From: Methylococcus sp.
Lineage (GTDB): Bacteria; Pseudomonadota; Gammaproteobacteria; Methylococcales; Methylococcaceae
Direction: 5' to 3'
DNA: 38,000 nt
Assembly (NCBI GenBank): GCA_007280285.1
Contig: QYQA01000037.1
Location: forward strand, 1 to 38,000
Shown piece by piece: positions 5,069 to 35,692 of this stretch. The notes below the pieces were generated by a model. The model worked only from the letters and a program-made list of their open reading frames with translations, was not told the origin of the DNA and made no database searches. The position numbers and the translations under genes are program-made. Each line of letters begins with the position of its first letter. Position 1 is the stretch's first letter.

Positions 5069-5776
5069 TCAAGATTTTAAGAAAAAAACCAAGAGATCGT
5101 TAGCGCTGACCATCCCGAGGAATTGTTTGTTGTCATCGATGACCGGGAGCTCATGGTGTTGGCCGCGGGAGAGTAGCTCAGCCGCTTCATGAAGTGGGGT
5201 ATTGGCGCTAAGGGTCACCGAGGTGCGTCCTTGGATCAGCCGAGAGACGGGGCTGTTCTGATCGATCGGCAGAGGCGCAGGCCGCGAGGGATCCCTTGAA
5301 CCCATGTGATGGGCTGAGCCTTGAGATTGCGGCGCAATGGCTCGATGGCTTCGGCCCATCACATCCTCGCGCGTACTTTCTGCGATATTGATCACCTCAA
5401 CAATCAGGGGCTCGGCAACGTCCAGTTCGTTCAGGGTCGAGCGAAGATGATCCAGCACGATATCAAAGTGCTTGTCCTTCATGCCCATATTGACCAGCTT
5501 TGCATGACTCCGGTTCATGTCCCGGCCGGTGTACTGGTGGGGGCCGCCGAACGCCATCGTCAAAAAGGCTTTCTGCTTTTCTGCCTGTTCGGTGATATTG
5601 ACGCCAAAAAAGAAGTAATTGATTCTGGCATCGCGCATACATTTCCGATAAAAGACGTCCACCGCGGCGTTGACGGTAGGAGCGCCCCCGAGCTTTTCAT
5701 AAAGACTCGCGTTATGGGTGTTCTCGGTGGGATTTTCTTTCTTTCTTGAAAAAACGTTGGCAAACGTCTCGCTCAT
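5069..5776 (-). CDS. Group I truncated haemoglobin fused to a CBS domain
   Basis: This is a 235-aa two-domain protein. Residues about 25-140 form a truncated globin: SLYEKLGG opening, VFYRKCMRDA with Tyr43 at the likely B10 position, and GRDMNRSHAKL carrying the probable proximal histidine His91, followed by KHFDIVLDHL. A Ser/Pro-rich linker (about 142-175) leads to one CBS motif at about 176-233, ending PVIDDNKQFLGMVSANDLL. Truncated globins bind O2 or NO; CBS domains usually bind adenine nucleotides and normally work in pairs, so this protein may dimerise. A strong RBS (AGGAGG, 5 nt spacing) supports the start. The gene is monocistronic. Function as a haem- or nucleotide-responsive sensor is inference. 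Confidence 0.85.
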   Translation of the reverse strand: MSETFANVFSRKKENPTENTHNASLYEKLGGAPTVNAAVDVFYRKCMRDARINYFFFGVNITEQAEKQKAFLTMAFGGPHQYTGRDMNRSHAKLVNMGMKDKHFDIVLDHLRSTLNELDVAEPLIVEVINIAESTREDVMGRSHRAIAPQSQGSAHHMGSRDPSRPAPLPIDQNSPVSRLIQGRTSVTLSANTPLHEAAELLSRGQHHELPVIDDNKQFLGMVSANDLLVFFLKS

Positions 5777-5921
5777 ACGGCCTCCTAGTAGGCATGGCTG
5801 GTGTTATCGGCACAACCATTCTAAATGTTAGTCAGGTGGCTAACGATGGCAGGGCGCATTTAAGTCATCATCATACTTTCATCGTACCATTTTGACCCCT
5901 ATCAGCGCGCCATTAAGAAGA
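5777..5921 (-). promoter_or_regulatory. Leader of the globin-CBS gene with an inverted repeat
   Basis: The 145-bp gap between the globin-CBS gene and the HAD gene (both minus strand) contains GTTAG-N8-CTAAC (about 5827-5844), a possible operator or short hairpin. A clear -35/-10 pair could not be identified. Confidence 0.25.
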
Positions 5922-22701: not shown

Positions 22702-23421
22702 TTAAATCATTCCACCATTCACTGAAATGACTTGCCCTGTGATGTAGGCGGCTTTATCAGAAGCCAAAAAGGCGACGAGATGGGCGACATCATCAGGACG
22801 TCCGGCCCGCTGCATGGGAACCAGTGCTTTGATGCGTTCAGCGTTAAAATGCCCCTCAGCCATGGCGCTATCAATGATGCCGGGGGCCACCACATTCACC
22901 AGAATGTCGCGGCTAGCCAGTTCAAGGGCGAGTGATTTTGAGGCACCAATCAAGCCGGCCTTGGCAGCGGCATAGTTGGCCTGACCTCGATTGCCGGTCA
23001 ATGCAGCCACTGAGGCGATGCTGATAATTCGCCCCCAGCGACTTCTGATCATCGGCATCAACAGAGGCTGGGTGGTATTGTAAAAGCCATGGAGGGAGAC
23101 ATCGATCACCCGACTCCATTGGTTGCGGTTCATCCCAACCAAGGGAGCATCATCATGGATCCCTGCATTGTGCACAATAATCTGGATGGGTTCGGCTTCC
23201 ACTAAAGGTTCAAGGACCCTTCTTGAACCGGCTTCATCGGTCAGATCAAACATCAAAAGGGTCGCCTTCCCACCTTTGGCATGGATGTCTTTGATGACTG
23301 ATTCTGCAGCACCAGGGTGTTGATGTGCGTGGACATAGACATGATGCCCTGCTGCGGCGAGGGCTCTGGCCATCGCCGCACCTAAGGTGCCGCTTCCCCC
23401 GGTGATGAGCGCACGTTTCAT
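22702..23421 (-). CDS. 3-oxoacyl-ACP reductase (FabG/ApeQ-like)
   Basis: This 239-aa short-chain dehydrogenase is the likely ketoreductase of polyene extension. It has the NAD(P) motif TGGSGTLGAAMA, NAG at about 85-87, and the catalytic triad Ser137, Tyr150 and Lys154 (ANYAAAKAGL). The C-terminal ITGQVISVNGGMI is classical FabG. Its start overlaps the dehydratase stop by ATGA. Function in aryl polyene synthesis is inferred from the operon. Confidence 0.9.
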   Translation of the reverse strand: MKRALITGGSGTLGAAMARALAAAGHHVYVHAHQHPGAAESVIKDIHAKGGKATLLMFDLTDEAGSRRVLEPLVEAEPIQIIVHNAGIHDDAPLVGMNRNQWSRVIDVSLHGFYNTTQPLLMPMIRSRWGRIISIASVAALTGNRGQANYAAAKAGLIGASKSLALELASRDILVNVVAPGIIDSAMAEGHFNAERIKALVPMQRAGRPDDVAHLVAFLASDKAAYITGQVISVNGGMI

Positions 23422-23864
23422 GACGACGCCTCAGTGCCTTTGAAAAAAACAGCCAGCTGACCCGATACTAAAAGATCATCGTCTGCCGACAGTTTAAATT
23501 GGTAGAGCGCTTGATGAGGATCATGATGAAGTCTTAAGAGGTCAATCTCGAGCGGTTTCTCAATGTCATCCAGCTTGGGCCGAGTCCAGCTTATGTTTTT
23601 GATTAAAGCGAGCACGCCACGACGAGGGCCGCTAAAAGCGGGTGAGGCACTCAGGGCGCCATGAATGGCACTGCATTGGGCCGCCATTTCGATGGCGCTG
23701 ATCGCAGGAAGATATCCCCTGATTCTTAATGGATGCGAGGGGTCCTGGTGATTGTGGATCATGCCTACCAGTGAATGTTCATCGGCCTTAATGATGTGAT
23801 CCACCAAGATCATGGGTCCTTGGTGGGGAAGGTAATCCGCGATTTCAGCACTTGTTAGTAACAT
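23418..23864 (-). CDS. Hotdog-fold 3-hydroxyacyl-ACP dehydratase-like protein (ApeP-like)
   Basis: This is a 148-aa hotdog protein. It opens YLPHQGPMILVDHII, similar to FabZ/ApeP, and has ISAIEMAAQCSAIHG, the helix that carries the acidic catalytic residue in dehydratases. The usual GHFP histidine of FabZ is not seen; the corresponding stretch is RIRGYLPA. In aryl polyene clusters ApeP pairs with ApeI as dehydratase subunits; here the second hotdog protein is the small gene at 29707-30003, which keeps its histidine. Overlaps both neighbours. Confidence 0.78.
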   Translation of the reverse strand: MLLTSAEIADYLPHQGPMILVDHIIKADEHSLVGMIHNHQDPSHPLRIRGYLPAISAIEMAAQCSAIHGALSASPAFSGPRRGVLALIKNISWTRPKLDDIEKPLEIDLLRLHHDPHQALYQFKLSADDDLLVSGQLAVFFKGTEASS

Positions 23865-24652
23865 GGTTGGATCTTAAGACATAAAGCGCCCTGCATGCCG
23901 ACCCCAAGGCGCAGCGTTTGGGTCTCTTTCCTGGCTATCGCGATCAGCAAAGGCAATGCACGGGCCGCTGGATTTGATGTCCTTAGGGTTTCAAGGCCCG
24001 GGTCGTTTAAAGGGGATACTGCTGGAGGCTCTGCTTCATAAGACCAGTCCAGTGAGGCCATGGGTGTGTCCTTGGGGTCTGATGATAAGAGAAAGCCCAC
24101 CGCAAAACCCGAGGGTATAGATCGATAGAGACTGATTGGATAAGGCGCTGGGAGATCATAGGCGACGACCAAAATGCGCTGATGTTGCTCTTGAAGCCGA
24201 AGCAAGCCCTCTAAAAGCCCCGATCCTAAGCTGTCGTCATAGGCGCAGAGGCTGTCAGTCGGCATTCTTGAACCACTAGCAATGCTCCAGTAACCCGCTG
24301 CTGCATTGTGTACTGAGTTGTGAAATTGGGTTGGAGAAAGACGCCGGTCAGGCCCTACGAGGGTTAAAAAGATCTCATGAACAATGTTGACCTCACCCCC
24401 TGAGGACGTGAAGAGGGCGGGTATATCTGATGGATCATGGCACCCCACGGCTTCTTCTGCCACATCAAGAGCAAGACGGGTTACTTCTGTTGCCCGCCGC
24501 CGCTCGGTGGGTGGCAACAGCGCAGCACGCCCTGACGGGGTGGGCATCAAGGGATCAAGGCCGCCATGGATGAGAATTTCTTTGGCTGTTGGCCAGTTCG
24601 AAAGCCCCGGCCCCCGAAGTCCAATCCCGATCAAATGAATCTCAGCGGCCAT
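23855..24652 (-). CDS. Chain-length-factor-like beta-ketoacyl synthase (ApeC-like)
   Basis: This is a 265-aa protein of the short ketosynthase-like family (Ketoacyl-synt_2 type). The active-site stretch reads SVHNAAAGYWSIA with no cysteine, so it is not expected to condense by itself; in aryl polyene systems such a subunit forms a heterodimer with an active ketosynthase and sets chain length. It lacks the C-terminal ketosynthase half. It overlaps the upstream ketosynthase by 11 bp, supporting a stoichiometric complex. Confidence 0.8.
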   Translation of the reverse strand: MAAEIHLIGIGLRGPGLSNWPTAKEILIHGGLDPLMPTPSGRAALLPPTERRRATEVTRLALDVAEEAVGCHDPSDIPALFTSSGGEVNIVHEIFLTLVGPDRRLSPTQFHNSVHNAAAGYWSIASGSRMPTDSLCAYDDSLGSGLLEGLLRLQEQHQRILVVAYDLPAPYPISLYRSIPSGFAVGFLLSSDPKDTPMASLDWSYEAEPPAVSPLNDPGLETLRTSNPAARALPLLIAIARKETQTLRLGVGMQGALCLKIQPCY

Positions 24653-25883
24653 GCTGATCGCGACCTAGTAAAAGACAGGCATTACTGCCACCAAATCCAA
24701 AGGCATTGCTGAGAATGATAGAGGTAGGAGCATGGATAGCGGGTTCCAGTGCAACGTGACTGCGAATCAATGGATCAACGGTTTGGGTATGCAGAGTGCC
24801 TGGTGTAAATTGGCCTTCAAGGGCAAGGCAAGCCGTGAGCGCGTTCATTATGCCGGCTGCACCCAAGGTATGACCGATATGCCCTTTGATGGAAGCAGCA
24901 TTCTTTGCTTCTCCCAGAACCTTAAGGATGCCGCGATCTTCTGCTATGTCATTCGTCCTTGTTGCAGTGCCATGCAACAGGATAAAGTCGACATCGTTGG
25001 AATCGATCTGTGCGGCATTCAAACAAGCCCGCATCGCGATGGCTGCGCCGAGGCCCTCTGGATGGGGTGAAGACATGTGGTGAGCATCACTGCTTTCGCC
25101 GGCACCTAAAACCGCCAACGATCCTTCCTCTCGGTGATGATGAGTGAGAATGGCAAATCCTGCCGCTTCCCCAATGGAGATCCCGTCACGATCGATGGCG
25201 CAGGGCTTTGAAGGGTTCTTTGACAGAAGTTCGAGAGAATGAAAACCAAAGAGTGTGGTGAGGCAAAGACTATCAACACCGCCGACAATCACTGCATCGC
25301 ATAGATCTGCTTCTAGCCAGCGGGCAGCGTTTGCAAAGATCTTGGCACTCGATGAGCAGGCCGTTGATACGGTCAAGGCAGGGCCTCTCAATTCAAGAAT
25401 CTCCCTGATGAAATGGGCCGTAGCAAAGGTGTTCTGAGTCTCTCGGTAACGAAAATCAGCGGGTAATGCCCCGCTCACTGGGTCTCGCCGGGTGTAGGCC
25501 TGTTCTGTTTCAAGTATGCCCGAGGTGCTCGTACCTAAAAGGACGCCCATCCGATGGGCGCCGAGCGATCGACGCAGTTCATCGACGCGAGGCATAAATC
25601 CGTCTTGCATCAGGGCGAGGTGGGCGAGACGATTATTACGGCCTTCATACGCCTTAAAGGCATCAGGAAGGGGGTGTTGTTCGATGCCATCCACCCGTCC
25701 GATGGCGGTGATGAAGTCGACACCATCAATATCGCATGGTCTAAGTCCTGAGCGATGGCTCAATAAGGCTTCCTTAAAGGCAGCGCGACCAAGCCCCAAG
25801 GCGTTACTCATCGTATAGTCCAACAGAGAGATCGGCCATCGGGGTCTTAAGGGCCTTGAGCGTTTTGATCCCAGAGTAATCAT
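24642..25883 (-). CDS. Beta-ketoacyl-ACP synthase II-like (ApeO/ApeR-like)
   Basis: This 413-aa ketosynthase performs decarboxylative condensation with malonyl-ACP. The catalytic triad is visible: Cys176 in STACSSSA, His304 in LHGTATRTND and His338 in KGHIGHTLGAAG. It starts with ATG overlapping the MMPL stop (ATGA). Only one active ketosynthase is present in the cluster; the E. coli aryl polyene cluster has more than one. The pairing with the adjacent cysteine-less subunit is the expected iterative extension module. Confidence 0.92.
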   Translation of the reverse strand: MITLGSKRSRPLRPRWPISLLDYTMSNALGLGRAAFKEALLSHRSGLRPCDIDGVDFITAIGRVDGIEQHPLPDAFKAYEGRNNRLAHLALMQDGFMPRVDELRRSLGAHRMGVLLGTSTSGILETEQAYTRRDPVSGALPADFRYRETQNTFATAHFIREILELRGPALTVSTACSSSAKIFANAARWLEADLCDAVIVGGVDSLCLTTLFGFHSLELLSKNPSKPCAIDRDGISIGEAAGFAILTHHHREEGSLAVLGAGESSDAHHMSSPHPEGLGAAIAMRACLNAAQIDSNDVDFILLHGTATRTNDIAEDRGILKVLGEAKNAASIKGHIGHTLGAAGIMNALTACLALEGQFTPGTLHTQTVDPLIRSHVALEPAIHAPTSIILSNAFGFGGSNACLLLGRDQHGR

Positions 25884-28216
25884 CTGACGGTTGGCACGGC
25901 TGAAGGACGCTCATTGGCCATCAAGGCCGCAAAGGAGACAGCGAGAAAGGCACCCAAAGCGACCGTTAACCCAATGCTATCGAGAATTGCGACATGGGCA
26001 CATGCCAGTGTTCCGAAGGCCAGGATGGAGCTGAGGCTACAAACCATCAATGAAAGACGGGTTCTTCGGTATTCGTCGGTGTCACGGGATGGTCGGTTAA
26101 AAAAAAGTGCCTGATCAAGACTAAGCCCCAAGACCAGAAGAAGCGAGACGAGATGATAGAGATTCAGTCCCCCGAATAACAAGGCCATCATTAACGCCGT
26201 TGAAATTCCAGCGGCCAATACTGGCATCAACACCTTCAAAGCCGTTGTCAAGCGACCGAGACCGCCCCAAAGTATAAGCGTGATCGCTAAAAGCCCAATC
26301 CCTAAAAGTCGGAGCGCCTCTTGGCGGTATTGGGTCATCCATTCGGTCGTTCTCAGCTTGAGATCGACGTACTGGACATGGTCGAGATGGCGCGCATCAA
26401 GGCCATTTTTGAGTGCCTGATCATCGGTGACCCCGTGGAGGGGGATGACTAATGCCCAGGAGTCTTCAAGATGAATGATCGCGGTGTCGATTGTTGTGGC
26501 CATGGGCGTTTCTGCCCAGATCTCAGGCCCGATCAAACCGCGCGCTTTTGCCGCTTCAGCATCCTGAAGGAACGGGTCAAATAAGCCTTGGCGAAATGGA
26601 AGCCCTTCTTGGGCCTTTTTCATGTGCGCGATGAGGTCTTTATGTGAAGGGAGCTCTGAGAGGCGCTGATGTTGTTTTTGATGGCTCGGTAGGATGTGAG
26701 TCACCAGGTCATATTGTTGAATAATGCCTGATGTCTTAAGTTCAGTTAGGGTGGGTTCAATAGCCTCAGCGTTTCTCAATAATGCTTCCTGATCAGCCCC
26801 AGTGACCACCAGCAACTTGCCTAATTCTGGACTCTTAAAATCCTCTTGGAGGCTGGCATCGATGTGAAGATTTTCGGTGGGTACTGGATTTAACGCAGCA
26901 ATGTCGTCGTTGAATAGCACACCATGTCGGTAAAAAAAGAGTCCAAGGAGGGTGATCACGATGAACCAGGGTAAGAATGAAAGGCCTTTAAGAGGATGTC
27001 CTTCAATACCAGATGACCTGTCATTGCTTTTACTAAGAAATGACATATGGGGCGGCGAATGAATCCATGGAGGAAGGATGAACCGTGTGGTGAGGGCCGC
27101 TGCGAGAAGACCTGAACCTGCAAATACGGCCAGTTGACTGAGCCCTGTAAACCCTGAAAAGAGCATCGCTCCGAAGCCTGCGATATTTGTTAGCACCCCA
27201 AGCCGTAGAGTTGGCCACAGGCGTTTCATGGTCTGCCTTGGAGATTCTTCGCGCTCGAGGTGGGTGAAAAGATGATTGGGATAATCCGCGGCAACACCTA
27301 GCAGTGTGCTGCCAAATCCCAAGGTGATGCCATGAAGCTGACCAAAACCAATGGCAGTCACCATGGCACCCGTCAGGAGGCCCGTGACCAGCGGGATAAG
27401 ACCAAGACCTAAGTAACGCCAGGATCGATAGACCAAGAGCAGTAATCCCATCACCAGCGCACTGTTGATCAAAGATAGACGTTTAGCCTCCTGTGTAATC
27501 CCTTGATGGGTTGCAACGCTGATCGCACCGGGTCCACCGAGAGTCAGGTGAAGGGATGTTGGCAGATGAAGTCCTTCGAAGACGTTAAGGATTCGTTCTT
27601 CGGCCCTTTGTTGTGCATCAATGTCAAATCCTGAAGCCTCGGTCTCAGCGAGAATCAGACTGCGTTGGTGATCTTTTGAAACCCAGAGCCCTCCCTCCCG
27701 AAGGGGGCCTTGATGTCCTATCATGGATTGGAGTAGTTGTGTCCATAAACCTTGAGGATCGCTCTCAAGCCAGCGCTGGGTTAGGGGAGCCAGCGGCGAA
27801 TAAAGGTCCTCCCAACGCGCCGTTAACGCCCCATGCAGGGCCTCCGAACTGTAGGGAGTTAAAGGTCCTTGATCCACCAGGTGAAATCGATAGGGGTACA
27901 CTTTTCCCTCAAGCAGTTTAAGAAGCTTAGAATCCTCTCCGTTACTGACACGAAGGAATAATGTGTCCTTCTCGAGGGCCTTGACGAGGCTTCCACTCGC
28001 CCGCGCCCGATCTTCTTTGGAAGCGCCAGACAGGGCGATCAGGATAAGACGGCTGACAGGCCCTTCTCGCATCTGCTGGAGCAATATCCGATCCACCAAC
28101 GTCGGTGTTTGCGGCAAAAAAAAAGTAAGGTCACTGTGAAGCGGGGTTCGGTTAATGACCCCTAGTGCGATAAGGCACCAAATGAACCAAATAAAGGTGA
28201 TGCGTCGCGGCTTCAC
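25880..28216 (-). CDS. MMPL/RND-family exporter (ApeM-like)
   Basis: This is a large 778-aa inner-membrane transporter with about 12 helices in two repeats, each with a large periplasmic loop. The first loop follows FFLPQTPTLVDRIL and the second follows NDDIAALNPVPTEN. Helix groups are LINSALVMGLLLLVY... and LLGIGLLAITLILWGG.... It resembles the COG4258 exporters of aryl polyene clusters, which are thought to move the pigment lipid across the periplasm together with a LolA-like carrier (the gene just upstream). Confidence 0.87.
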   Translation of the reverse strand: MKPRRITFIWFIWCLIALGVINRTPLHSDLTFFLPQTPTLVDRILLQQMREGPVSRLILIALSGASKEDRARASGSLVKALEKDTLFLRVSNGEDSKLLKLLEGKVYPYRFHLVDQGPLTPYSSEALHGALTARWEDLYSPLAPLTQRWLESDPQGLWTQLLQSMIGHQGPLREGGLWVSKDHQRSLILAETEASGFDIDAQQRAEERILNVFEGLHLPTSLHLTLGGPGAISVATHQGITQEAKRLSLINSALVMGLLLLVYRSWRYLGLGLIPLVTGLLTGAMVTAIGFGQLHGITLGFGSTLLGVAADYPNHLFTHLEREESPRQTMKRLWPTLRLGVLTNIAGFGAMLFSGFTGLSQLAVFAGSGLLAAALTTRFILPPWIHSPPHMSFLSKSNDRSSGIEGHPLKGLSFLPWFIVITLLGLFFYRHGVLFNDDIAALNPVPTENLHIDASLQEDFKSPELGKLLVVTGADQEALLRNAEAIEPTLTELKTSGIIQQYDLVTHILPSHQKQHQRLSELPSHKDLIAHMKKAQEGLPFRQGLFDPFLQDAEAAKARGLIGPEIWAETPMATTIDTAIIHLEDSWALVIPLHGVTDDQALKNGLDARHLDHVQYVDLKLRTTEWMTQYRQEALRLLGIGLLAITLILWGGLGRLTTALKVLMPVLAAGISTALMMALLFGGLNLYHLVSLLLVLGLSLDQALFFNRPSRDTDEYRRTRLSLMVCSLSSILAFGTLACAHVAILDSIGLTVALGAFLAVSFAALMANERPSAVPTVR

Positions 28217-28839
28217 TTAGGCGTAAACCTAAGATGGCTTGAATCGCCATCAGATTGGACGATCGAAATCGCGGTCACCGTTCCACGTTCTCCGTTGACG
28301 GTTACTTGAAGGACTAGGGCGTTAAGTTCAGGACCCTTCGGCTTTAATGTTAAGGACCAATGCAGGAGAGATCCTCCTAGATGAGGTTCCCAAAACTTTC
28401 TTAAGGTAACAAGATCTCCTGCGAGTGGCGCCCGGATCGCTTCGATGAAGGCTTGAAGAACACCGGCATCGGCGAGTGAAAACGCCATATCTTCGGTCGC
28501 TCTTGGGTCATGGATAAAGACCTGATCCCCTTCAACCCGATAGGTAATTGCTCTTGGGGTCGTGACTTCCTTTAAGAGCCCTGAAGGGGGTGTAAAGGTG
28601 AGGACTCCCTCACTTTCAAGGGGGCTTATGAGCGCTGCAATGTGCCGAGATTCATGAAACCGGACGCTTCGTTGCGAATGCACCATTAACGTTGCTACAA
28701 GAGATTCAATCGTCAGTGGGCCGGTCTTTTGGGAGGCTCCAAGGGATGGCTGTTGAACGAACGGCATGAAGCTTAAAGCCAGTGCGAAGAGCCTGCGCTT
28801 GGTGCGGCTTTTAAGGTGCCTGAAGGTCCCAAATGTCAT
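28213..28839 (-). CDS. LolA-like outer-membrane carrier (ApeL-like)
   Basis: This is a periplasmic protein of about 208 aa. A signal peptide is seen: RTKRRLFALALSFMPF with probable cleavage after SLGA. The mature part has VRFHESRHIAALISPLESEGVLTFTPPSGLLKEV, the usual LolA-like segment of these clusters. The track start at 28875 adds a residual N-terminus; ATG 28839 gives a normal signal. It overlaps the acyltransferase by about 29 bp and MMPL by 4 bp. It probably chaperones the pigment lipid to the outer membrane. Confidence 0.8.
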   Translation of the reverse strand: MTFGTFRHLKSRTKRRLFALALSFMPFVQQPSLGASQKTGPLTIESLVATLMVHSQRSVRFHESRHIAALISPLESEGVLTFTPPSGLLKEVTTPRAITYRVEGDQVFIHDPRATEDMAFSLADAGVLQAFIEAIRAPLAGDLVTLRKFWEPHLGGSLLHWSLTLKPKGPELNALVLQVTVNGERGTVTAISIVQSDGDSSHLRFTPK

Positions 28840-29710
28840 GGAAATTAAACCAGTTATGAGGGGCGCGACGGGCATAGTGTTCTAGTCTTTCAGCATAGCG
28901 ACCCATGATGTCCTGAGCGGCCTTATGCCGGTCATCACGGGAGATTAAAGAGGCATCACCGAGTTCTTCGAAGTGAATGCTATAGCGCCCCCAACCCGTC
29001 CTTAAGCAGACAAAGAAGATCATCGGTAGTTTCAAAATATGCGAGAGCATGACGGGGGTGGTGGGCAATTCAATAGGACCATCGAAAAAATCGCATTGAA
29101 TCCTCTTGTCATGGGGCATACAACGATCGGCCAAAAGAGCTAGCATCTGTCCTTCCCTCAGGTCTCCTTCAAGCCCGATTAAGGCCGCAGGACCATTGAC
29201 GGTGATGATATCTTGATGAAGCTCCGGATTGAGCGACCGATACAGATTGACTATGTCTGGTGTGGCTTCGCCATACATCAACGCCTTCACCTTGATACCT
29301 CTTCGAAGGCGCCCCAATGCTCTTAGGATCTCAAAACTACCATGATGCGATCCAACGAGGAGACACGCCTGCTTTTTGTCCGCATAGCGTTGAAGGATCT
29401 CGAAATGATGGGCTTCTATGTTGAGGAGGTGATCGCGCCCGGTTAGAACGGCCAGTCGATCAAGCAGAGTCCCTGCAAAATTATGGTACAGCGTAAACAG
29501 ATCGATAAAAGAAGGCTCTCGCTGAAGCGCTTTCCTAAGAAAGGTTCGTGTCGCTTTTAATCCCTTATTTTTCACCGACATGAAATAAAGTGTAATCGGG
29601 TAAAGGAGGATGCGCGCAACCCCTCTTCCAAGATGAAGAGTGATCCAGGTGATCACCCGGAGCCAGAAGAGACTGCTCCTCTCAGGGAGATTCTGCCATG
29701 TGAGGGTCAT
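28811..29710 (-). CDS. LpxL/HtrB-type acyltransferase (ApeD/J-like)
   Basis: This is a 299-aa membrane-associated lysophospholipid/lipid A-type acyltransferase. The catalytic HX4E motif is SHHGSFEILR (His122-Glu127). One N-terminal helix is seen. The start at 29773 in the track is inside the previous gene; ATG 29710 has AGGAG 8 nt upstream and overlaps the stop of the small dehydratase (ATGA). It probably acylates the pigment head group or attaches the polyene to a lipid. Confidence 0.85.
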   Translation of the reverse strand: MTLTWQNLPERSSLFWLRVITWITLHLGRGVARILLYPITLYFMSVKNKGLKATRTFLRKALQREPSFIDLFTLYHNFAGTLLDRLAVLTGRDHLLNIEAHHFEILQRYADKKQACLLVGSHHGSFEILRALGRLRRGIKVKALMYGEATPDIVNLYRSLNPELHQDIITVNGPAALIGLEGDLREGQMLALLADRCMPHDKRIQCDFFDGPIELPTTPVMLSHILKLPMIFFVCLRTGWGRYSIHFEELGDASLISRDDRHKAAQDIMGRYAERLEHYARRAPHNWFNFHDIWDLQAP

Positions 29711-30003
29711 AGCTTCGGCTCCTGTGCAATGTTGAAAATTCCTGTGGCTATCAGGGTGGCCCCATAGTGGCAAGTGAACTTCAGCCCCTGATCAGAATGA
29801 TCGATCATGACATGGACGATTTGATCGGGTTTCAGTTCATGGGTAAATTTTGCTCTTTTAATCCCGGTAATGTTGAGATTCGGCCATTCGTCTTGGGTTC
29901 TGGCCATAATTTCTTCTAGGAGTGTCACGCCGGGTACGAGGGGATATTGGGGGAAGTGCCCTTCCAGGGAGGGGTGCTGAGCATGGATTAAGAATTCAAT
30001 CAT
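29707..30003 (-). CDS. FabZ-like hotdog dehydratase (ApeI-like)
   Basis: This is a 98-aa single hotdog domain. It keeps the catalytic motif EGHFPQYPLVPGVTLLEE with His16, as in 3-hydroxyacyl-ACP dehydratases of aryl polyene clusters. It would dehydrate the extended hydroxyacyl-ACP and so build the polyene. Overlaps the COG4648 gene start by 8 bp and the acyltransferase by 4 bp. Confidence 0.82.
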   Translation of the reverse strand: MIEFLIHAQHPSLEGHFPQYPLVPGVTLLEEIMARTQDEWPNLNITGIKRAKFTHELKPDQIVHVMIDHSDQGLKFTCHYGATLIATGIFNIAQEPKL

Positions 30004-30622
30004 GTTTAGTCACGTTTAATCCATCACGACGCATCACTCGGAGAACCTCAATGGGTGAGGATGGCGTCAAATGCCGGAAGCGGATTCGTCGATAGAAGAG
30101 TTCGCACACAAAGAAAGACGCCATGATGAAAAAATTCAGGGTATTGGCGAACAGCATCGCTAACGTTACTTCACCGGATAGAGCCCAATAGAGGCCATTC
30201 AGCGCTAAAAGGATCAACAGCACCCCCCAACACTCGGTGAGGCGTTGGGTGTACGCCTGAAGTTCTAAGGGAAGCGGACGTTGATTGCGGACGCGCTGGG
30301 CCAAACGGGTAATCAGTGGGACTTCGGGTGGCTTCAGCGTTAAAAGGAAGGTCAATGACAGCGCAAGATTCATCAAGACAGGCATAACTAGGGCCGTCAT
30401 CCTTGGGTTCATGATAAATCCAAAACCCATCCCGAGGCTCAGTACAAACAGCATACTGAAGCGCGAACGTGGGCTCAAAGGAATCCCAAACGTCAAAATG
30501 ACCGCAAACACCGTATCGGGTAGCGTCATCCAGATGGGGTCAAAGAATTCAGAGCACAGTAGCCAGAGGGCCAATAGTGGGGCACCTACGGCAAGCATCG
30601 CGGCCGTCAACCACCTTATCAT
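29996..30622 (-). CDS. COG4648-type membrane protein (aryl polyene cluster)
   Basis: This is a 208-aa inner-membrane protein with about six helices. It opens MIRWLTAAMLAVGAPLLALWLL, has a FSMLFVLSLGMGFGFIMNP centre and a LILLALNGLYWALSGEVTLAMLFANTLNFF C-terminal part, followed by the soluble tail ELFYRRIRFRHL. Such proteins recur in aryl polyene clusters but their role is unproven. Starts at ATG overlapping the ACP stop (ATGA). Confidence 0.72.
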   Translation of the reverse strand: MIRWLTAAMLAVGAPLLALWLLCSEFFDPIWMTLPDTVFAVILTFGIPLSPRSRFSMLFVLSLGMGFGFIMNPRMTALVMPVLMNLALSLTFLLTLKPPEVPLITRLAQRVRNQRPLPLELQAYTQRLTECWGVLLILLALNGLYWALSGEVTLAMLFANTLNFFIMASFFVCELFYRRIRFRHLTPSSPIEVLRVMRRDGLNVTKHD

Positions 30623-30888
30623 CCGGTGGTTTTACGGGTGGTGACGGTGGTTCCTAGGTCTTTCAGTGATGAAAAAATGGTTTCGATGTCAGGATCATCT
30701 GATTTGATTTGAAAACCGTATTTCTTGGAGATGACAACCGAGAGTTCCAAGAGGTCAATAGAATCAAGACCAAGACCCTCAAGGTAGAGAGGGGCGTTAG
30801 GTTCGATGGTTTGAGGGTCAGCGTCGAGATTCAGCGCGCCAACAATCAATTCGGCAAGTTCTTTTTCAATAAGGGTTTGAGTGGCCAT
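30619..30888 (-). CDS. Acyl carrier protein of the pigment cluster
   Basis: This is an 89-aa ACP. The phosphopantetheine site is GLGLDSIDLLEL with Ser43. It should carry the starter and the growing chain. The track start (30942) lies inside the chorismatase gene; the ATG at 30888, 14 nt after the chorismatase stop, is preferred. Only a single ACP is found in this cluster; E. coli-type aryl polyene clusters have two. Confidence 0.9.
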   Translation of the reverse strand: MATQTLIEKELAELIVGALNLDADPQTIEPNAPLYLEGLGLDSIDLLELSVVISKKYGFQIKSDDPDIETIFSSLKDLGTTVTTRKTTG

Positions 30889-30901
30889 AGGGGGTAATCG
30901 G

Positions 30902-31927
30902 TCAGGTATACGTTGGATGCCATGAAGATCCCGAAAGATCAAGAGTCGCTTCTATTTCAAGGAGGAGATCGCGCCGACAAATATCGGCTTCAAGCCAAAT
31001 GACACGGCTTGAAGGATGTAGCCATGACTTGAGACATTCTTTCATCAGGGCTTGATCCTTGGCTTGCCGCAGATATATTTTGAACGCCGCGCGTTCACCC
31101 CATTGCCACAAGGGCTGAAGATGATGGGTTTTAAGGAGAGTCGACAGATTATCGATCGTGATCTCACATTGGCGGCGGATGTCATTCGGGGCATGGGTTT
31201 CATGGCCTAAAATACTTGCAGTCCCGGAGATAAAAACCACGTCATGCTGCGGGCTTTTGAAGCGAACGGCTCTTGAAAAAGAGGGACTTTTGGGTCCGTA
31301 TCTCTCAGGATAATTGTATGCGCTCACTTGATTTGGATTTTCAAGGGGTGTCATCGCACCATTGCCGGCGATAAAGATCAGCCAAAGATCCTCCCCGGAT
31401 GAACCTAAGGCGCTCGCTGCAGGGAGGTTGTGCCGCATATTGAAGCCAAAGGCTTCGAGGGCCTCGAAACGCGCAAGACAGAAGCTCCTATAACGTTCAA
31501 GGTCCTCTTCTTCACGGTGGATCTCTGGAAAAAATTGCCACACTCTTAAAAGGTGCTCATAGCCAAGACGCCGAGTTGCCCCCAGTAAGCCATGATAAGC
31601 CGTTGTGGTAGCCTCCCGAATAGCCTTAGAAGGCCATCGGCCGACGCCAATTAAGAGTTCATCTGTAGCCGCGTAATCTATGCCGTTGAGGGTGCCATAG
31701 GTCGGTTTATTAAGGCTCGTCCAACGCTCACTCTGCGGTGAATCTTTGAGAGGAATGATGGCGGGATACGCCCTTGGCTTGCTCTCCCTTTCATGGCGTA
31801 AACGGGTGCTGTGTCCATAGTGGATTTCGGCCAAGGTAAAAGGTCCTTCTGTCCGAGGCCGCACCCCCTTGGGTTGCCTCGGCTCAGGATATAAGGCCTC
31901 CTTGACGCTGACCTTAGGCGCCATCAT
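30902..31927 (-). CDS. Chorismatase of the FkbO/Hyg5/XanB2 family
   Basis: This 341-aa YjgF-like-fold enzyme is expected to convert chorismate to hydroxybenzoate (XanB2 makes 3- and 4-hydroxybenzoate in Xanthomonas; Hyg5 makes 3-hydroxybenzoate). Signature segments are LLRVWQFFPEIH, RYRSFCLARFEA, NPNQVSAYNYPERYGPKSPS, SFSRAVRF and ISGTASILGHET. The track starts inside the halogenase gene; ATG 31927 is 8 nt after its stop and gives the usual length. The exact product (3-HBA, 4-HBA or dihydroxy form) cannot be told. It supplies the aromatic starter of the pigment. Confidence 0.87.
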   Translation of the reverse strand: MMAPKVSVKEALYPEPRQPKGVRPRTEGPFTLAEIHYGHSTRLRHERESKPRAYPAIIPLKDSPQSERWTSLNKPTYGTLNGIDYAATDELLIGVGRWPSKAIREATTTAYHGLLGATRRLGYEHLLRVWQFFPEIHREEEDLERYRSFCLARFEALEAFGFNMRHNLPAASALGSSGEDLWLIFIAGNGAMTPLENPNQVSAYNYPERYGPKSPSFSRAVRFKSPQHDVVFISGTASILGHETHAPNDIRRQCEITIDNLSTLLKTHHLQPLWQWGERAAFKIYLRQAKDQALMKECLKSWLHPSSRVIWLEADICRRDLLLEIEATLDLSGSSWHPTYT

Positions 31928-31935
31928 CTGATGCT

Positions 31936-33204
31936 TCAGCGGCTGATGGTAGGAACGAAGCCGCGTCTCATCAGCCACGACTTGATGTAGTAGATGCTCC
32001 GGAACGCCCACAATGAGGGACCCAGGCGAGTCTTTCTGAAAAGATCGCCGGCCAGCACGGAGATCACCGCCCCTTTGACGTTAAAGATATTCCTTGGGTG
32101 CATAAAAAGATCCCGTATGGCGGGCGTGGTGATGCGGTAAATGAACCATGAGAAAACGCCAAGACCCCGATCGATATCTCGCTGAAAAGACTTCAGCAAA
32201 GAGGCAGTTCTAGTGGGGTCATTGAGGGCTCCGTCAATCACCTCAGCGGCCTTAAAGGCGCTGTTGAGCGCCAGATGCACGCCGCTTGAAAAGACCGGGT
32301 CAATGAATGCATAAGCATCTCCGATCAGCAGATAGTTGCTGCCCGTCATCTCTCTTGAACGGTATGAATAATTCCCGGTTGCAGTCACCTTCCCAACCCG
32401 CTGAGCCCCTTGAAGTCGTTCCGAGACGAGGGGGCTTCTGGCAATGGTCTGATCCATAAAATCATCCACAGGAATATCACGATTCTTGAGATACTCCGGC
32501 CGACAGACCGCACCGACGCTCATCGTGCCATCTTTGAGGGGGATCATCCAAAACCAGCCATCGTCAAACCAATAGACACATATATTGCCTTCAGCCTCCC
32601 CTTCAGCCCGCTGCGCTCCCTGATAGTGCGCATAGATGGCGGCGCTTTTATGTCTTTTATTGCGTTCTTTGAGATTGAGGGCGTCGGCCATGAAGGTGTC
32701 ACGTCCGGTTGCATCGATATAAAATCGCGCGGTAAATGTCTTCCTTGAACCCTTTTCGTTGCGCGCCGTGATGGATTGAAGGGTTCGTTCATGACACTCT
32801 AAGGTGTCAACACGCCAACCTTCATGGACGCAGGCACCTTTGGCTCTGGCATTTTCCAAAAGGAGATGGTCAAATTCTGAGCGTCTCACTTCATAGGCGT
32901 AAGGATAGTCGCCTTTGAGTGATTCACCAAAGTCGAATGTCGTTGATTTGCCGTGATAGATCGAATGAAATTCGGCAGCGTACTTCTTAAGCCCAATATG
33001 ATCGACCGCGTCGAGTACCCCGAGTTTTTCAAGATAAGGGAGACTTAACGGTAAGAGGCTTTCCCCGATATGAAACCGAGGATGATGATCTTTCTCAAGC
33101 ACAACGGTATCGAAGCCTTTCATGGCCAGGAGGGCCGCTGCGGCTGAACCTGCAGGGCCGCCGCCCATAATGAGGACATCGCAATGTTGGTGGGCGCGAT
33201 TCAT
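31936..33204 (-). CDS. FAD-dependent halogenase-like oxidoreductase
   Basis: This is a 422-aa flavoprotein. The FAD motif GGGPAGSAAA is at about 14-23, the geranylgeranyl-reductase/halogenase segment HIGESLLP follows, and the halogenase signature WxWxIP occurs as WFWMIPL at 217-223. The GDAYAFIDPVFSSGVHLA segment is also typical of the family. Xanthomonadins carry bromine, so ring halogenation is the natural hypothesis; not all WxWxIP proteins halogenate. First gene of the thirteen-gene run, with no clear RBS. Confidence 0.78.
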   Translation of the reverse strand: MNRAHQHCDVLIMGGGPAGSAAAALLAMKGFDTVVLEKDHHPRFHIGESLLPLSLPYLEKLGVLDAVDHIGLKKYAAEFHSIYHGKSTTFDFGESLKGDYPYAYEVRRSEFDHLLLENARAKGACVHEGWRVDTLECHERTLQSITARNEKGSRKTFTARFYIDATGRDTFMADALNLKERNKRHKSAAIYAHYQGAQRAEGEAEGNICVYWFDDGWFWMIPLKDGTMSVGAVCRPEYLKNRDIPVDDFMDQTIARSPLVSERLQGAQRVGKVTATGNYSYRSREMTGSNYLLIGDAYAFIDPVFSSGVHLALNSAFKAAEVIDGALNDPTRTASLLKSFQRDIDRGLGVFSWFIYRITTPAIRDLFMHPRNIFNVKGAVISVLAGDLFRKTRLGPSLWAFRSIYYIKSWLMRRGFVPTISR

Positions 33205-33232
33205 GGGGGACCGTCCATGTTAAAGATGATGA

Positions 33233-33254
33233 TGCTCTGAATTGTAGCAGAGCA
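33233..33254. promoter_or_regulatory. Inverted repeat in the halogenase/deacetylase divergent region
   Basis: TGCTCTG and CAGAGCA flank an 8-nt centre. On the minus strand the centre reads TACAAT, a good -10 sequence for the halogenase operon (no good -35 found). A palindrome over the -10 suggests a repressor or activator site controlling the pigment genes. Confidence 0.4.
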
Positions 33255-33299
33255 ACCTAAAGGCCATGGGATGAGTCTTTCCTTATTCATTGAGTCACG

Positions 33300-34175
33300 A
33301 TGGACACGATAACATCAGCAATAAGAAGGCCAAGGGACTTTCAACCGTCTCAGTTCATTCGGTTGTCGATAGGCCTCCATCTGGTCGCCGGTGGCTTCTT
33401 GGCCTTGAGGCCTGAGGAGTGGCCCCTCGCTCTTGAGACCCTGGCGCTCGATCATCTGATCCTGGCATCATTGGGGCTCTGGCCAAAGAGTAGGGGCTTA
33501 GGCCCAAATTGGCGGCGTCTCCCTTTTGATGATGCATTCAACAATCGGGTCGCGTTAACCTTCGATGATGGGCCTGATCCCATCGTGACGCCGAAGGTCC
33601 TCGACCTTTTAGATGCTACATCCTCTACAGCAACTTTTTTCTGTATTGGCGAGCGCGTTCTTCAGCACAAAGGCCTGGTCCAGGACATTGTCGCCCGCGG
33701 CCATACGATTGAAAATCATAGTCACTATCACCGCCTGGGTTTTGCGTGTTCTTCGGTTCGGGGGTTTGTCGAGGAAATAGGGCGCGCTCAGGAGGCGATT
33801 GCTGAGATGACTGGTCGGGCGCCTCGATTTTTCAGGGCGCCTTTTGGCTTTAGGAGTCCATTACTCGAACCAGCGCTTTGTGAACTTGGACTTGATCTTG
33901 TTAGTTGGACCCGGCGTGGCTACGACACGCGTGAGCGATCTCCTCAGAGAATTCAAAAGAGACTCCTTCAAGGCCTCAGCGATGGCGATATCTTGTTGCT
34001 CCATGATGGTCATTCAGCGAAGAGCTTGACCGATCAGCCGGTGGTCTTAGACGTTCTACCTGATCTTTTAGCGACACTTCGAGACGAAGGACTCCAAGGG
34101 GTCAGTCTTGATCAAGGGATCCCCGCCTTTATGAACGACAACGACGCACACACAAAAGGGGCAAGCGAATCATGA
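33300..34175 (+). CDS. Polysaccharide deacetylase (NodB-type) with N-terminal membrane segments
   Basis: This is a 291-aa protein. One or two hydrophobic helices (about 22-60) precede the NodB domain. Motif 1 is LTFDDGPDP (Asp89/Asp90), motif 2 is ENHSHYH (His140, His144), motif 3 is FFRAPFGFRSP. All metal and catalytic residues are in place, so it should be active on N-acetylated sugars or a similar group. It is on the plus strand inside a minus-strand cluster and diverges from the halogenase gene; its 3' end overlaps the convergent GT2 gene by 47 bp. A role in trimming a sugar head group is inference. Confidence 0.87.
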   Translation: MDTITSAIRRPRDFQPSQFIRLSIGLHLVAGGFLALRPEEWPLALETLALDHLILASLGLWPKSRGLGPNWRRLPFDDAFNNRVALTFDDGPDPIVTPKVLDLLDATSSTATFFCIGERVLQHKGLVQDIVARGHTIENHSHYHRLGFACSSVRGFVEEIGRAQEAIAEMTGRAPRFFRAPFGFRSPLLEPALCELGLDLVSWTRRGYDTRERSPQRIQKRLLQGLSDGDILLLHDGHSAKSLTDQPVVLDVLPDLLATLRDEGLQGVSLDQGIPAFMNDNDAHTKGASES

Positions 34176-34887
34176 ATTCGACGAAGAGACGGGCATGCAT
34201 GAAGGTGAGTAGCGCGTTGTCACGACCGTACTTGAAGTGGGTCACTCCGCCTTCTTCAGGCGTGAAATAGCGAACGGAGGCTGGCTGGTTGATCGCACAA
34301 ATACCGCGCCAACGGAGCCTTACAACCGCTTCTGGATCAAAATCAAAACGCCGCATAAAGGGCTGATGGTTCAAAATATCCAGAAGTGGCTCAATCGGAT
34401 AGACCCTAAATCCAAAGAGAGAGTCGCCGATGCCGCTCCACAGTGTTTCAAGATTGGCCCACCAATTAGAGATTCGGCGTCCTATGACCCTTAGAGAAGG
34501 AGCATCATGAGCGAAGATGGGCAGCCCTAGAATCATTCTTTCGGGCGACGCCTTTGAGAGCGTCATGAACAGCTGAATCGATCGGGCGGGGTGTTGTCCA
34601 TCTGAATCCATGGTCAACACATGAGTGAACCCCATTTGCTGTGCTGCACGAATTCCTTCATGGACGGCCGACCCTTTTCCCCGGTTACGATCAAGTCTTA
34701 AGATAAAAAGCCCCGTGTCCTCCTGCGCCATGGCCTCTAGCAGCACAGGGCTGCTATCGGTACTCCCATCCACCACCACCCAGACCGGGTTCCAGTAGGT
34801 TCTTGCTTCCCTCACCGTCTCAATGATCTTGAGACCAGGGTTATAGCTTGGGATGAGCACCAGGTGCGTTGGGTCAATATTGTCCAT
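34129..34887 (-). CDS. GT2 glycosyltransferase
   Basis: This 252-aa glycosyltransferase is a DPM1-like family 2 enzyme. It has LIPSYNPGLK, VDGSTDSS, NRGKGSAVHEG and the metal-binding DSDGQHP (about 94-100). No C-terminal membrane domain is obvious except a hydrophobic end. The track begins at TTG 34899; ATG 34887 is preferred. It probably adds a sugar to the polyene, as glycosyltransferases accompany many aryl polyene clusters. It is 31 nt after the PlsC-like gene. Confidence 0.85.
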   Translation of the reverse strand: MDNIDPTHLVLIPSYNPGLKIIETVREARTYWNPVWVVVDGSTDSSPVLLEAMAQEDTGLFILRLDRNRGKGSAVHEGIRAAQQMGFTHVLTMDSDGQHPARSIQLFMTLSKASPERMILGLPIFAHDAPSLRVIGRRISNWWANLETLWSGIGDSLFGFRVYPIEPLLDILNHQPFMRRFDFDPEAVVRLRWRGICAINQPASVRYFTPEEGGVTHFKYGRDNALLTFMHARLFVEFMIRLPLLCVRRCRS

Positions 34888-34918
34888 AATGAAGGTCAAT
34901 GCGATGTCTTAAAAGGGC

Positions 34919-35692
34919 CTATAGGTGGGTTGTCAATGCCTCCTGAAAGTAGCTTTCCATGGCCAGAGTCAGCTGACGAGCGGGTCCAATCGGTGGAAAC
35001 TTTTTTCCTAAGCGGAAAGTGATTCTAACCGGAATTTTTGGCGGTTTTGTGATGGGCCAACCTTTGCCAAGATACCCTGAAGGACAATCGATTAGGATGG
35101 TCTGTATAGGAACATCGGCCTTGAGTGCCAATAGAGCGCTCGTTTTGGTGAGGGGGTTAATCGGGGGAGAAAGCGTCCTCGTGCCTTCTGGAAATAGCAG
35201 GAGATGATGGCCTCTTGACAGATTGCGGCGACCCTCTCGTATCATGGCCAAGGTGAGGTGATTGGGAATGTAGCCTGCGAGTCTTGCACCGATACCGAAC
35301 AGAGGATGATCCAACAAAGAGGCTTTTAAGACCACGCCAAGGGCCGGTAAGGTCGTCAGTATGACAATAGCATCCAGAAGGCCTGGATGATTCGGCGTAA
35401 TGACCATGGGTGCAGAGGCCTTAAGAGGATCGAGTGCCCGGGTATCTGTGATCAGCCAACCCAGACTTCCGAGGACCGTCACATAAAGCCTAAAGCCGAT
35501 GCTGATCCCGAGACGGCTCAGCGATTGAACCTGTTGCTTTGAAAAAAAGGCATAGAGAAGCAGGGCAATGATGGACCAAGAAAGGCATAAGATGAGGAAG
35601 AAAAAACAAGAGATGATGAGCGCAAAGTAGCCATATAAGGCCGTGAGTGCCTCATGACATCTGGCGCCAAACACACTCAGGCCGCCCAACAT
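34919..35692 (-). CDS. PlsC-type 1-acylglycerol-3-phosphate acyltransferase
   Basis: This 257-aa membrane-bound acyltransferase has two N-terminal hydrophobic segments (about 22-50) and the PlsC motifs: NHPGLLD (His102-X4-Asp107), and FPEGTR at 167-172. It probably acylates the pigment intermediate or a lipid head group. It begins only 38 bp from the divergent gene at 35731, so they share a promoter region. With GT2 it forms the upstream unit of the pigment cluster, cut off from the main run by the deacetylase. Confidence 0.85.
   Translation of the reverse strand: MLGGLSVFGARCHEALTALYGYFALIISCFFFLILCLSWSIIALLLYAFFSKQQVQSLSRLGISIGFRLYVTVLGSLGWLITDTRALDPLKASAPMVITPNHPGLLDAIVILTTLPALGVVLKASLLDHPLFGIGARLAGYIPNHLTLAMIREGRRNLSRGHHLLLFPEGTRTLSPPINPLTKTSALLALKADVPIQTILIDCPSGYLGKGWPITKPPKIPVRITFRLGKKFPPIGPARQLTLAMESYFQEALTTHL

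Follow-up and report, generated by a model that had tools for sequence, protein, structure and literature searches.

A truncated haemoglobin fused to a single CBS motif in a genus of Methylococcales

Results

A globin gene that continues into a CBS motif

We found that a gene on the minus strand of a 38,000-nucleotide stretch of Methylococcus DNA (the window, meaning the whole stretch that was analysed) codes for a protein in which a truncated globin, assigned to group I, is joined by a flexible linker to a single CBS motif. The combination of globin and CBS is real, is kept by selection, and is restricted to one lineage as far as we searched. The open reading frame lies at positions 5069–5776 and encodes 235 amino acids, with coding sequence running from 5776 down to 5072 and a stop codon at 5071–5069; full-length orthologues are known. 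A Shine-Dalgarno sequence, AGGAGGCC, precedes the gene at 5779–5786 (minus strand).

Pfam searches identified a Bac_globin domain (PF01152) at residues 24–138, with an E-value of 6.9e-17 and 62.2 bits against a cut-off of 21, and a CBS motif (PF00571) at residues 187–231, with an E-value of 3.7e-10 and 40.4 bits against a cut-off of 24. Pfam finds one CBS motif per chain, and not the two motifs that define a Bateman module. NCBIfam returned only partial CBS-type matches, to diphosphatases, IMP dehydrogenase and similar proteins, all far below cut-off. PADLOC, which detects anti-phage defence genes, returned zero matches, so a defence role was rejected.

The protein can be divided into four parts, all encoded on the minus strand. 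An N-terminal extension (residues 1–22, window 5711–5776) begins MSETxANxFSRKK... and is followed by the globin domain (residues 23–142, window 5351–5710), which ends with the Arg that is also the last residue of the aligned standalone homologues. A flexible linker of variable length and sequence, delimited by alignment, AlphaFold and dN/dS (residues 143–176, window 5249–5350), then leads to the CBS motif (residues 177–235, window 5072–5248), which is most like the second CBS motifs of two-CBS proteins. In an AlphaFold model built with 21 related sequences the globin region has a pLDDT of about 86, residues 1–20 are disordered, and the tether (residues 145–187) falls below 50; residues 174–235 modelled alone give a complete CBS fold with a pLDDT of 87. 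These results agree with the original prediction, which had described an intact group I globin with Tyr B10 and a proximal His (Tyr43 and His91, invariant in 22/22 aligned sequences), a 35-residue linker (about 34 residues here, from Arg142 to the first CBS helix) and one CBS motif (one PF00571 match, with a complete fold predicted). The frame itself exists as described there, and its strand, which had been left unstated, is minus.

The N-terminal 22 residues are conserved in all the fusion orthologues (as SETxxNxFxRKK) despite being mostly predicted as disordered, with only a short predicted helix at residues 5–10. Mycobacterial HbN has a pre-A region to which this extension may be compared.

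The fusion occurs in one genus among the genomes searched

The genus was sampled by six genomes (G000 to G005), of which G000 is the 2.2-Mb draft genome that holds the window. Five of them (G000, G001, G003, G004 and G005) contain the full-length fusion, the other four orthologues having 57–85% identity; it was not found in G002, whose genome is 83% complete. Across the order (311 genomes from 50 genera), 255 genomes have a strong match, and in the matches listed outside the five the globin is followed by a stop, so that no other listed genome has a full-length fusion. Nor was one found in 369 genomes of the class, 399 genomes of the phylum, 396 Bacteroidota genomes or 72,556 plasmids. These sets are samples, and because the search profile was fitted to this globin, it could have passed over CBS fusions of truncated globins less closely related to it. 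A full gene for the AMO/pMMO subunit (PF02461) is present in 2/6 genus genomes; the others are drafts that may simply lack the stretch carrying it. We take the order to be Methylococcales from this result, and the genus probably consists of methane-oxidising bacteria.

We found no earlier report of a globin-CBS fusion in the open-access collection that we searched, which omits most subscription papers. The original prediction had called the architecture uncommon and proposed an architecture search across genomes; our genome searches, which found globin plus CBS in a single genus, support its view. It had also held that its proposal would fail if the fusion were widespread and characterised or if the CBS residues for nucleotide binding were missing: the fusion is not widespread, and the nucleotide residues are present here (SAND) but not strictly conserved among orthologues.

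A separate observation concerns apparent tandem truncated globins: in several gammaproteobacteria a single long open frame contains two trHb1 domains, one directly after the other (G394:C56, G164:C108, G152:C3, G171:C6, G404:C98 and others).

Origin from a standalone truncated globin

The standalone trHb1 proteins of Methylococcales are 59–71% identical to the fusion globin. Those extracted align with its 120 residues without a gap and end where the fusion has Arg142, with neither linker nor CBS. The fusion frame runs on from Arg142 into the linker and CBS, so the tail was added exactly at the ancestral C-terminus. In a tree of globin domains the five fusions form one clade (support 100/99) with a long stem branch (0.55). 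This clade is nested among standalone copies, first those of G001 and G005 (99/88) and next that of G013 (95/90), which makes the standalone proteins the phylogenetic parent group. G001 and G005 carry both forms, and in G000 the fusion is the only match to the query. Judging from the tree and the alignments, the fusion goes back to a standalone trHb1 that was duplicated in the genus or in its immediate ancestor.

Both domains have evolved under constraint. Estimates of dN/dS for pairs of orthologues, which are approximate because synonymous sites are near saturation in some pairs, are 0.03–0.05 for the globin (strong purifying selection), 0.09–0.15 for the CBS motif (clear purifying selection) and 0.19–0.49 for the linker, which is weakly constrained and drifting. 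The low dN/dS of both domains, together with the occurrence of the protein in four further genus genomes at 57–85% identity and in two gene neighbourhoods, excludes a product of chance or assembly. We therefore rejected an assembly artefact or mis-joined frame, the same full-length protein being present in all five genomes. The CBS motif is nevertheless diverging much faster than the globin (32–45% versus 77–78% identity between subclades), and this fits poorly with a strictly kept ligand site.

Gene order in related genomes, and a relic in G013, prompted the idea that the CBS motif was derived from a neighbouring HPP-CBS gene. We did not adopt it, because the scores are higher against the second motif of soluble two-CBS proteins (51–54 bits) than against that of HPP-CBS (35–45 bits), and a CBS tree of 60 columns did not resolve the placement of the fused motif.

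The globin and its heme pocket

The pocket residues, identified by alignment, are Tyr43 at B10 (window 5648–5650), Gln64 at E7, Lys67 at E10 and Gln68 at E11 (together within 5573–5587), and His91, the proximal F8 haem ligand (5504–5506), all on the minus strand. All five are invariant in 22/22 aligned sequences (5 fusion and 17 standalone). Among solved structures, those nearest to the globin are cyanoglobins and Chlamydomonas THB1, all of group I, and a Foldseek search with the globin part placed THB1 first (6cii; TM-score 0.90 by target length, rmsd 1.4), in keeping with a 2-over-2 fold. On these comparisons the domain is a group I truncated haemoglobin (trHb1, 2/2HbN).

By the same comparisons its pocket is THB1-like. 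THB1 of Chlamydomonas reinhardtii (4xdi, 6cii) shares the 2-over-2 fold, has 44% identity in the Foldseek alignment, and has Tyr B10, Gln E7, Lys E10 (Lys53) and His F8 aligned with those of the fusion; it differs in being a eukaryotic, single-domain protein without CBS. Lys67 aligns with THB1 Lys53, as in hexacoordinate globins, and in THB1, THB2 and THB4 the sixth ligand is Lys E10 (PMC7082302, PMC4439042). THB10 and THB11 also have Lys E10, yet are pentacoordinate when ferrous (PMC7082302), so this residue is an insufficient sign of Lys–iron ligation. Mycobacterium tuberculosis HbN, which has NO dioxygenase activity (PMC3493545), is likewise a group I protein with Tyr B10 and Gln E11, but it is only about 30–32% identical by fold alignment and has no CBS. 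Six positions are fixed in the fusion and different in every aligned standalone protein (Tyr54, Asn60, Arg85, Ser90, Met99 and Met140), and Ser90 directly precedes the proximal His91.

Truncated globins joined to other domains have been described before (PMC3820574); the titles on such chimeras cited in PMC7082302 name other partner domains and no CBS motif. The fusion is also distinct from the globin-coupled sensors (PMC7082302) in that its globin is 2-over-2 and of the trHb type, and in that its CBS is not a catalytic output domain.

Standalone relatives lie in a nitric oxide gene cluster

In G001 and G005 the standalone trHb1 gene is beside a gene for a Fer2-FAD-NAD (2Fe-2S/FAD) reductase and a divergent GAF-sigma54 activator resembling NorR, and in G013 the set of trHb1, reductase and NorR-type genes is followed by norC- and norB-like genes. 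Clusters in other genera contain the reductase and, in some cases, a ScdA/hemerythrin protein resembling YtfE, a two-CBS HPP membrane protein and norCB, with an Rrf2 or NorR regulator nearby. The labels norB, norC, NorR, NsrR and YtfE are assigned here by Pfam family, gene order and resemblance. On Methylocystis plasmids, trHb1 is followed by a gene for a 2Fe-2S protein. The standalone proteins of Methylococcales and Methylocystis have the same pocket as the fusion, with other neighbours.

The recurrent form of this cluster was observed at six loci (L056–L061, in G012, G015, G036, G011, G037 and G034), where an Rrf2/NorR-type regulator, trHb1 and the 2Fe-2S/FAD reductase are followed by a ScdA/hemerythrin YtfE-like gene at some loci only, and then by genes for the two-CBS HPP membrane protein and a small protein, norC and norB. 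Near the NorR–trHb1–reductase cluster of G001 and G005 another globin-like protein is encoded, which is divergent and has an acidic extension at its N-terminus (L036 5070–5555 and L037 9429–9926).

In a cultivated Methyloprofundus the ten genes with the most transcripts include one for a group I truncated haemoglobin, which was read as a possible response to NO (PMC8788690). Taken together, the pocket residues and the operons of the standalone copies suggest that NO handling is the likeliest chemistry of the fusion globin, and it is the operon context of these paralogues that supports NO handling better than O2 sensing.

HPP is found in 0/6 genus genomes. Its clustering with trHb1, as a two-CBS HPP protein, in several relatives of this HPP-less genus gives circumstantial support to a sensing link between globin and CBS, and would also allow the fused CBS to be a docking module. 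HPP proteins include a nitrite transporter (PMC4137279). Between the reductase gene and norC in G013 (L052 2636–3016, G013:C484) lies a decayed HPP-CBS gene, of which a short piece of HPP and, in another frame, the last CBS motif alone are left.

The CBS motif and its possible ligand

CBS domains often bind adenine nucleotides, with an S/T-x-x-D motif contacting the ribose, and two CBS motifs have to come together before the usual fold unit can form. With one motif per chain, the fusion is expected to pair between chains or with another CBS protein. The putative ribose-contacting motif is S224-A-N-D227 (window 5096–5107, minus strand) in G000, TSAD in G005 and TSTD in G001, and SANE in G003 and G004; an LPV(I/V)D motif is kept in the fusion orthologues. 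With S/T-x-x-D in 3/5 orthologues and S-x-x-E in 2/5, nucleotide binding is plausible but not secure.

Foldseek searches with the CBS part gave CBSX2-AMP, MgtE-ATP and IMPDH-Ap4A among the top matches. The fusion shares the CBS fold with CBS-pair proteins that hold adenosyl ligands (CBSX2 with AMP, 4gqy; MJ0100 with SAM/MTA, 3kpb; IMPDH with Ap4A, 7oj1), but those proteins have two CBS motifs per chain and the fusion has one.

Neighbourhood and upstream region of the fusion gene

The fusion gene is located between a HAD phosphatase gene and tusA-parC in G000, G003 and G004, and beside folA and moaC or an OYE-type oxidoreductase gene (named by resemblance) in G005 and G001. It has thus been kept in two different settings. 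No reductase or NO gene adjoins it in any of its five genomes, which counts against an NO function.

About 100 bases before the start codon there is a 20-base element, TCAAAATGGTACGATGAAAG (window 5876–5895, minus strand), which is identical in three genus genomes and occurs once in each. It is probably a promoter or regulator site, and TGGTACGAT within it could be an extended -10 promoter. A regulon defined by this 20-mer was rejected on its single occurrence per genome. A sigma70 promoter scan near the start of the fusion gene gave nothing above chance, no sigma54-type site stands out upstream of it, and G000, G003 and G004 have no full-length match to the NorR-like gene of the standalone locus; control by NorR and sigma54 was rejected on the latter two results.

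Elsewhere in the window, positions 22702–35692 (minus strand) contain genes for a ketoacyl synthase, a 3-oxoacyl reductase, an MMPL exporter, acyltransferases, a glycosyltransferase, a chorismatase-like protein and a FAD enzyme resembling Trp-halogenases. By its gene content this looks like an aryl-polyene or xanthomonadin-type pigment cluster.

Discussion

The mechanism that we propose, to which we give somewhat less than an even chance, is that the fusion is an NO-type trHb1 whose NO/O2 chemistry is tuned, through a tether, by an adenosyl ligand on an inter-chain, Bateman-like CBS module. In this mechanism a duplicated standalone trHb1 has gained a flexible tether of about 34 residues and one CBS at its old C-terminus. 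The globin would be of the NO-detoxifying kind (an NO dioxygenase or NO scavenger), with the pocket of Tyr B10, Gln E7, Lys E10, Gln E11 and His F8 binding O2 and turning over NO; Lys E10 could take the sixth position as an internal ligand, the part it plays in Chlamydomonas THB1. Two chains would pair through their single CBS motifs into one Bateman-like module, making the protein a dimer or higher oligomer, and an adenosyl compound (AMP/ADP/ATP, SAM or similar) would sit in the CBS cleft. The bound ligand would move the tethered globins, make them more or less accessible, or alter how they dock with a reductase, so that NO/O2 chemistry would follow metabolic state. We infer the NO chemistry, the pairing of CBS motifs, the binding of a ligand and the coupling between domains. 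The original prediction, that such a protein could couple O2/NO with energy charge through CBS pairing in a dimer, is thus supported in part: the architecture is uncommon and both domains look intact and selected, and the coupling to energy charge is hypothetical. That adenylate or SAM would set the haem chemistry directly, the ligand on the inter-chain CBS shifting Lys E10 ligation or reductase access, seems to us unlikely. We found no description in the accessible literature of an NO/O2 truncated haemoglobin with built-in energy-state allostery.

We rank nucleotide-tuned NO chemistry as the leading mechanism and dimerisation alone as its main rival. The CBS motif might be only a dimerisation or oligomerisation tag, which joins two globins or stabilises the protein and senses no ligand; we hold this to be a minority prospect but a serious one. 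That a lone motif has to pair speaks for a tag, as does the variation among orthologues at the Asp of the nucleotide motif, and a long, variable and disordered linker suits tethering better than rigid allosteric coupling. On the other hand, a mere tag accounts less well for the retention of the S/T-x-x-D/E and LPV(I/V)D motifs and for the low dN/dS of the CBS.

A less probable alternative is that the fused CBS docks onto the CBS of another protein (a two-CBS protein or a membrane transporter) and so recruits the globin, standing in for the HPP-CBS protein that this genus does not have. The cluster shared by trHb1 and the HPP/two-CBS protein in relatives, the absence of HPP from the sampled genus genomes and the nitrite transporter among HPP proteins would all fit such a role. 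The scores fit it poorly, the second motif of HPP-CBS being a more distant match for the fused CBS than that of soluble two-CBS proteins; in addition, the CBS tree does not place the fused motif.

We are similarly doubtful that the globin is an O2/NO sensor or an O2 store (for methane oxidation, for example) and not an NO dioxygenase, with the CBS as its output or coupling part. The pocket residues are all unchanged from the NO-linked standalone copies, which argues against this change of function, although the absence of an adjoining reductase or NO gene, the six fusion-specific positions and the long stem branch of the globin clade speak for it. A further point in its favour is that in other methanotrophs truncated globins of groups II/III are considered to supply methane monooxygenase with O2 (PMC11102522).

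Finally, it is very improbable that the tail is a neutral, functionless read-through or fusion, or an artefact of assembly, because this reading, which could appeal to the faster evolution of the CBS half than of the globin half, is largely refuted by the dN/dS of the CBS across pairs and by conservation of the protein in five genomes and two neighbourhoods.

A comparison can be drawn with known ways of adding domains to globins. In globin-coupled sensors a sensor globin of the 3-over-3 type is linked with an output domain for signalling; the fusion described here is a truncated-haemoglobin chimera with CBS as the partner. The genus belongs to an order of apparent methane-oxidisers, where NO, O2 and energy supply meet. 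For the standalone trHb1 family, the recurrent NO cluster (reductase, NorR/Rrf2 regulator, YtfE-like protein, HPP-CBS and norCB) provides a concrete functional setting. Truncated haemoglobins are widespread and their regulation is mostly unknown, and the fusion may serve as a simple test protein for a possible tie between gas chemistry and metabolic state.
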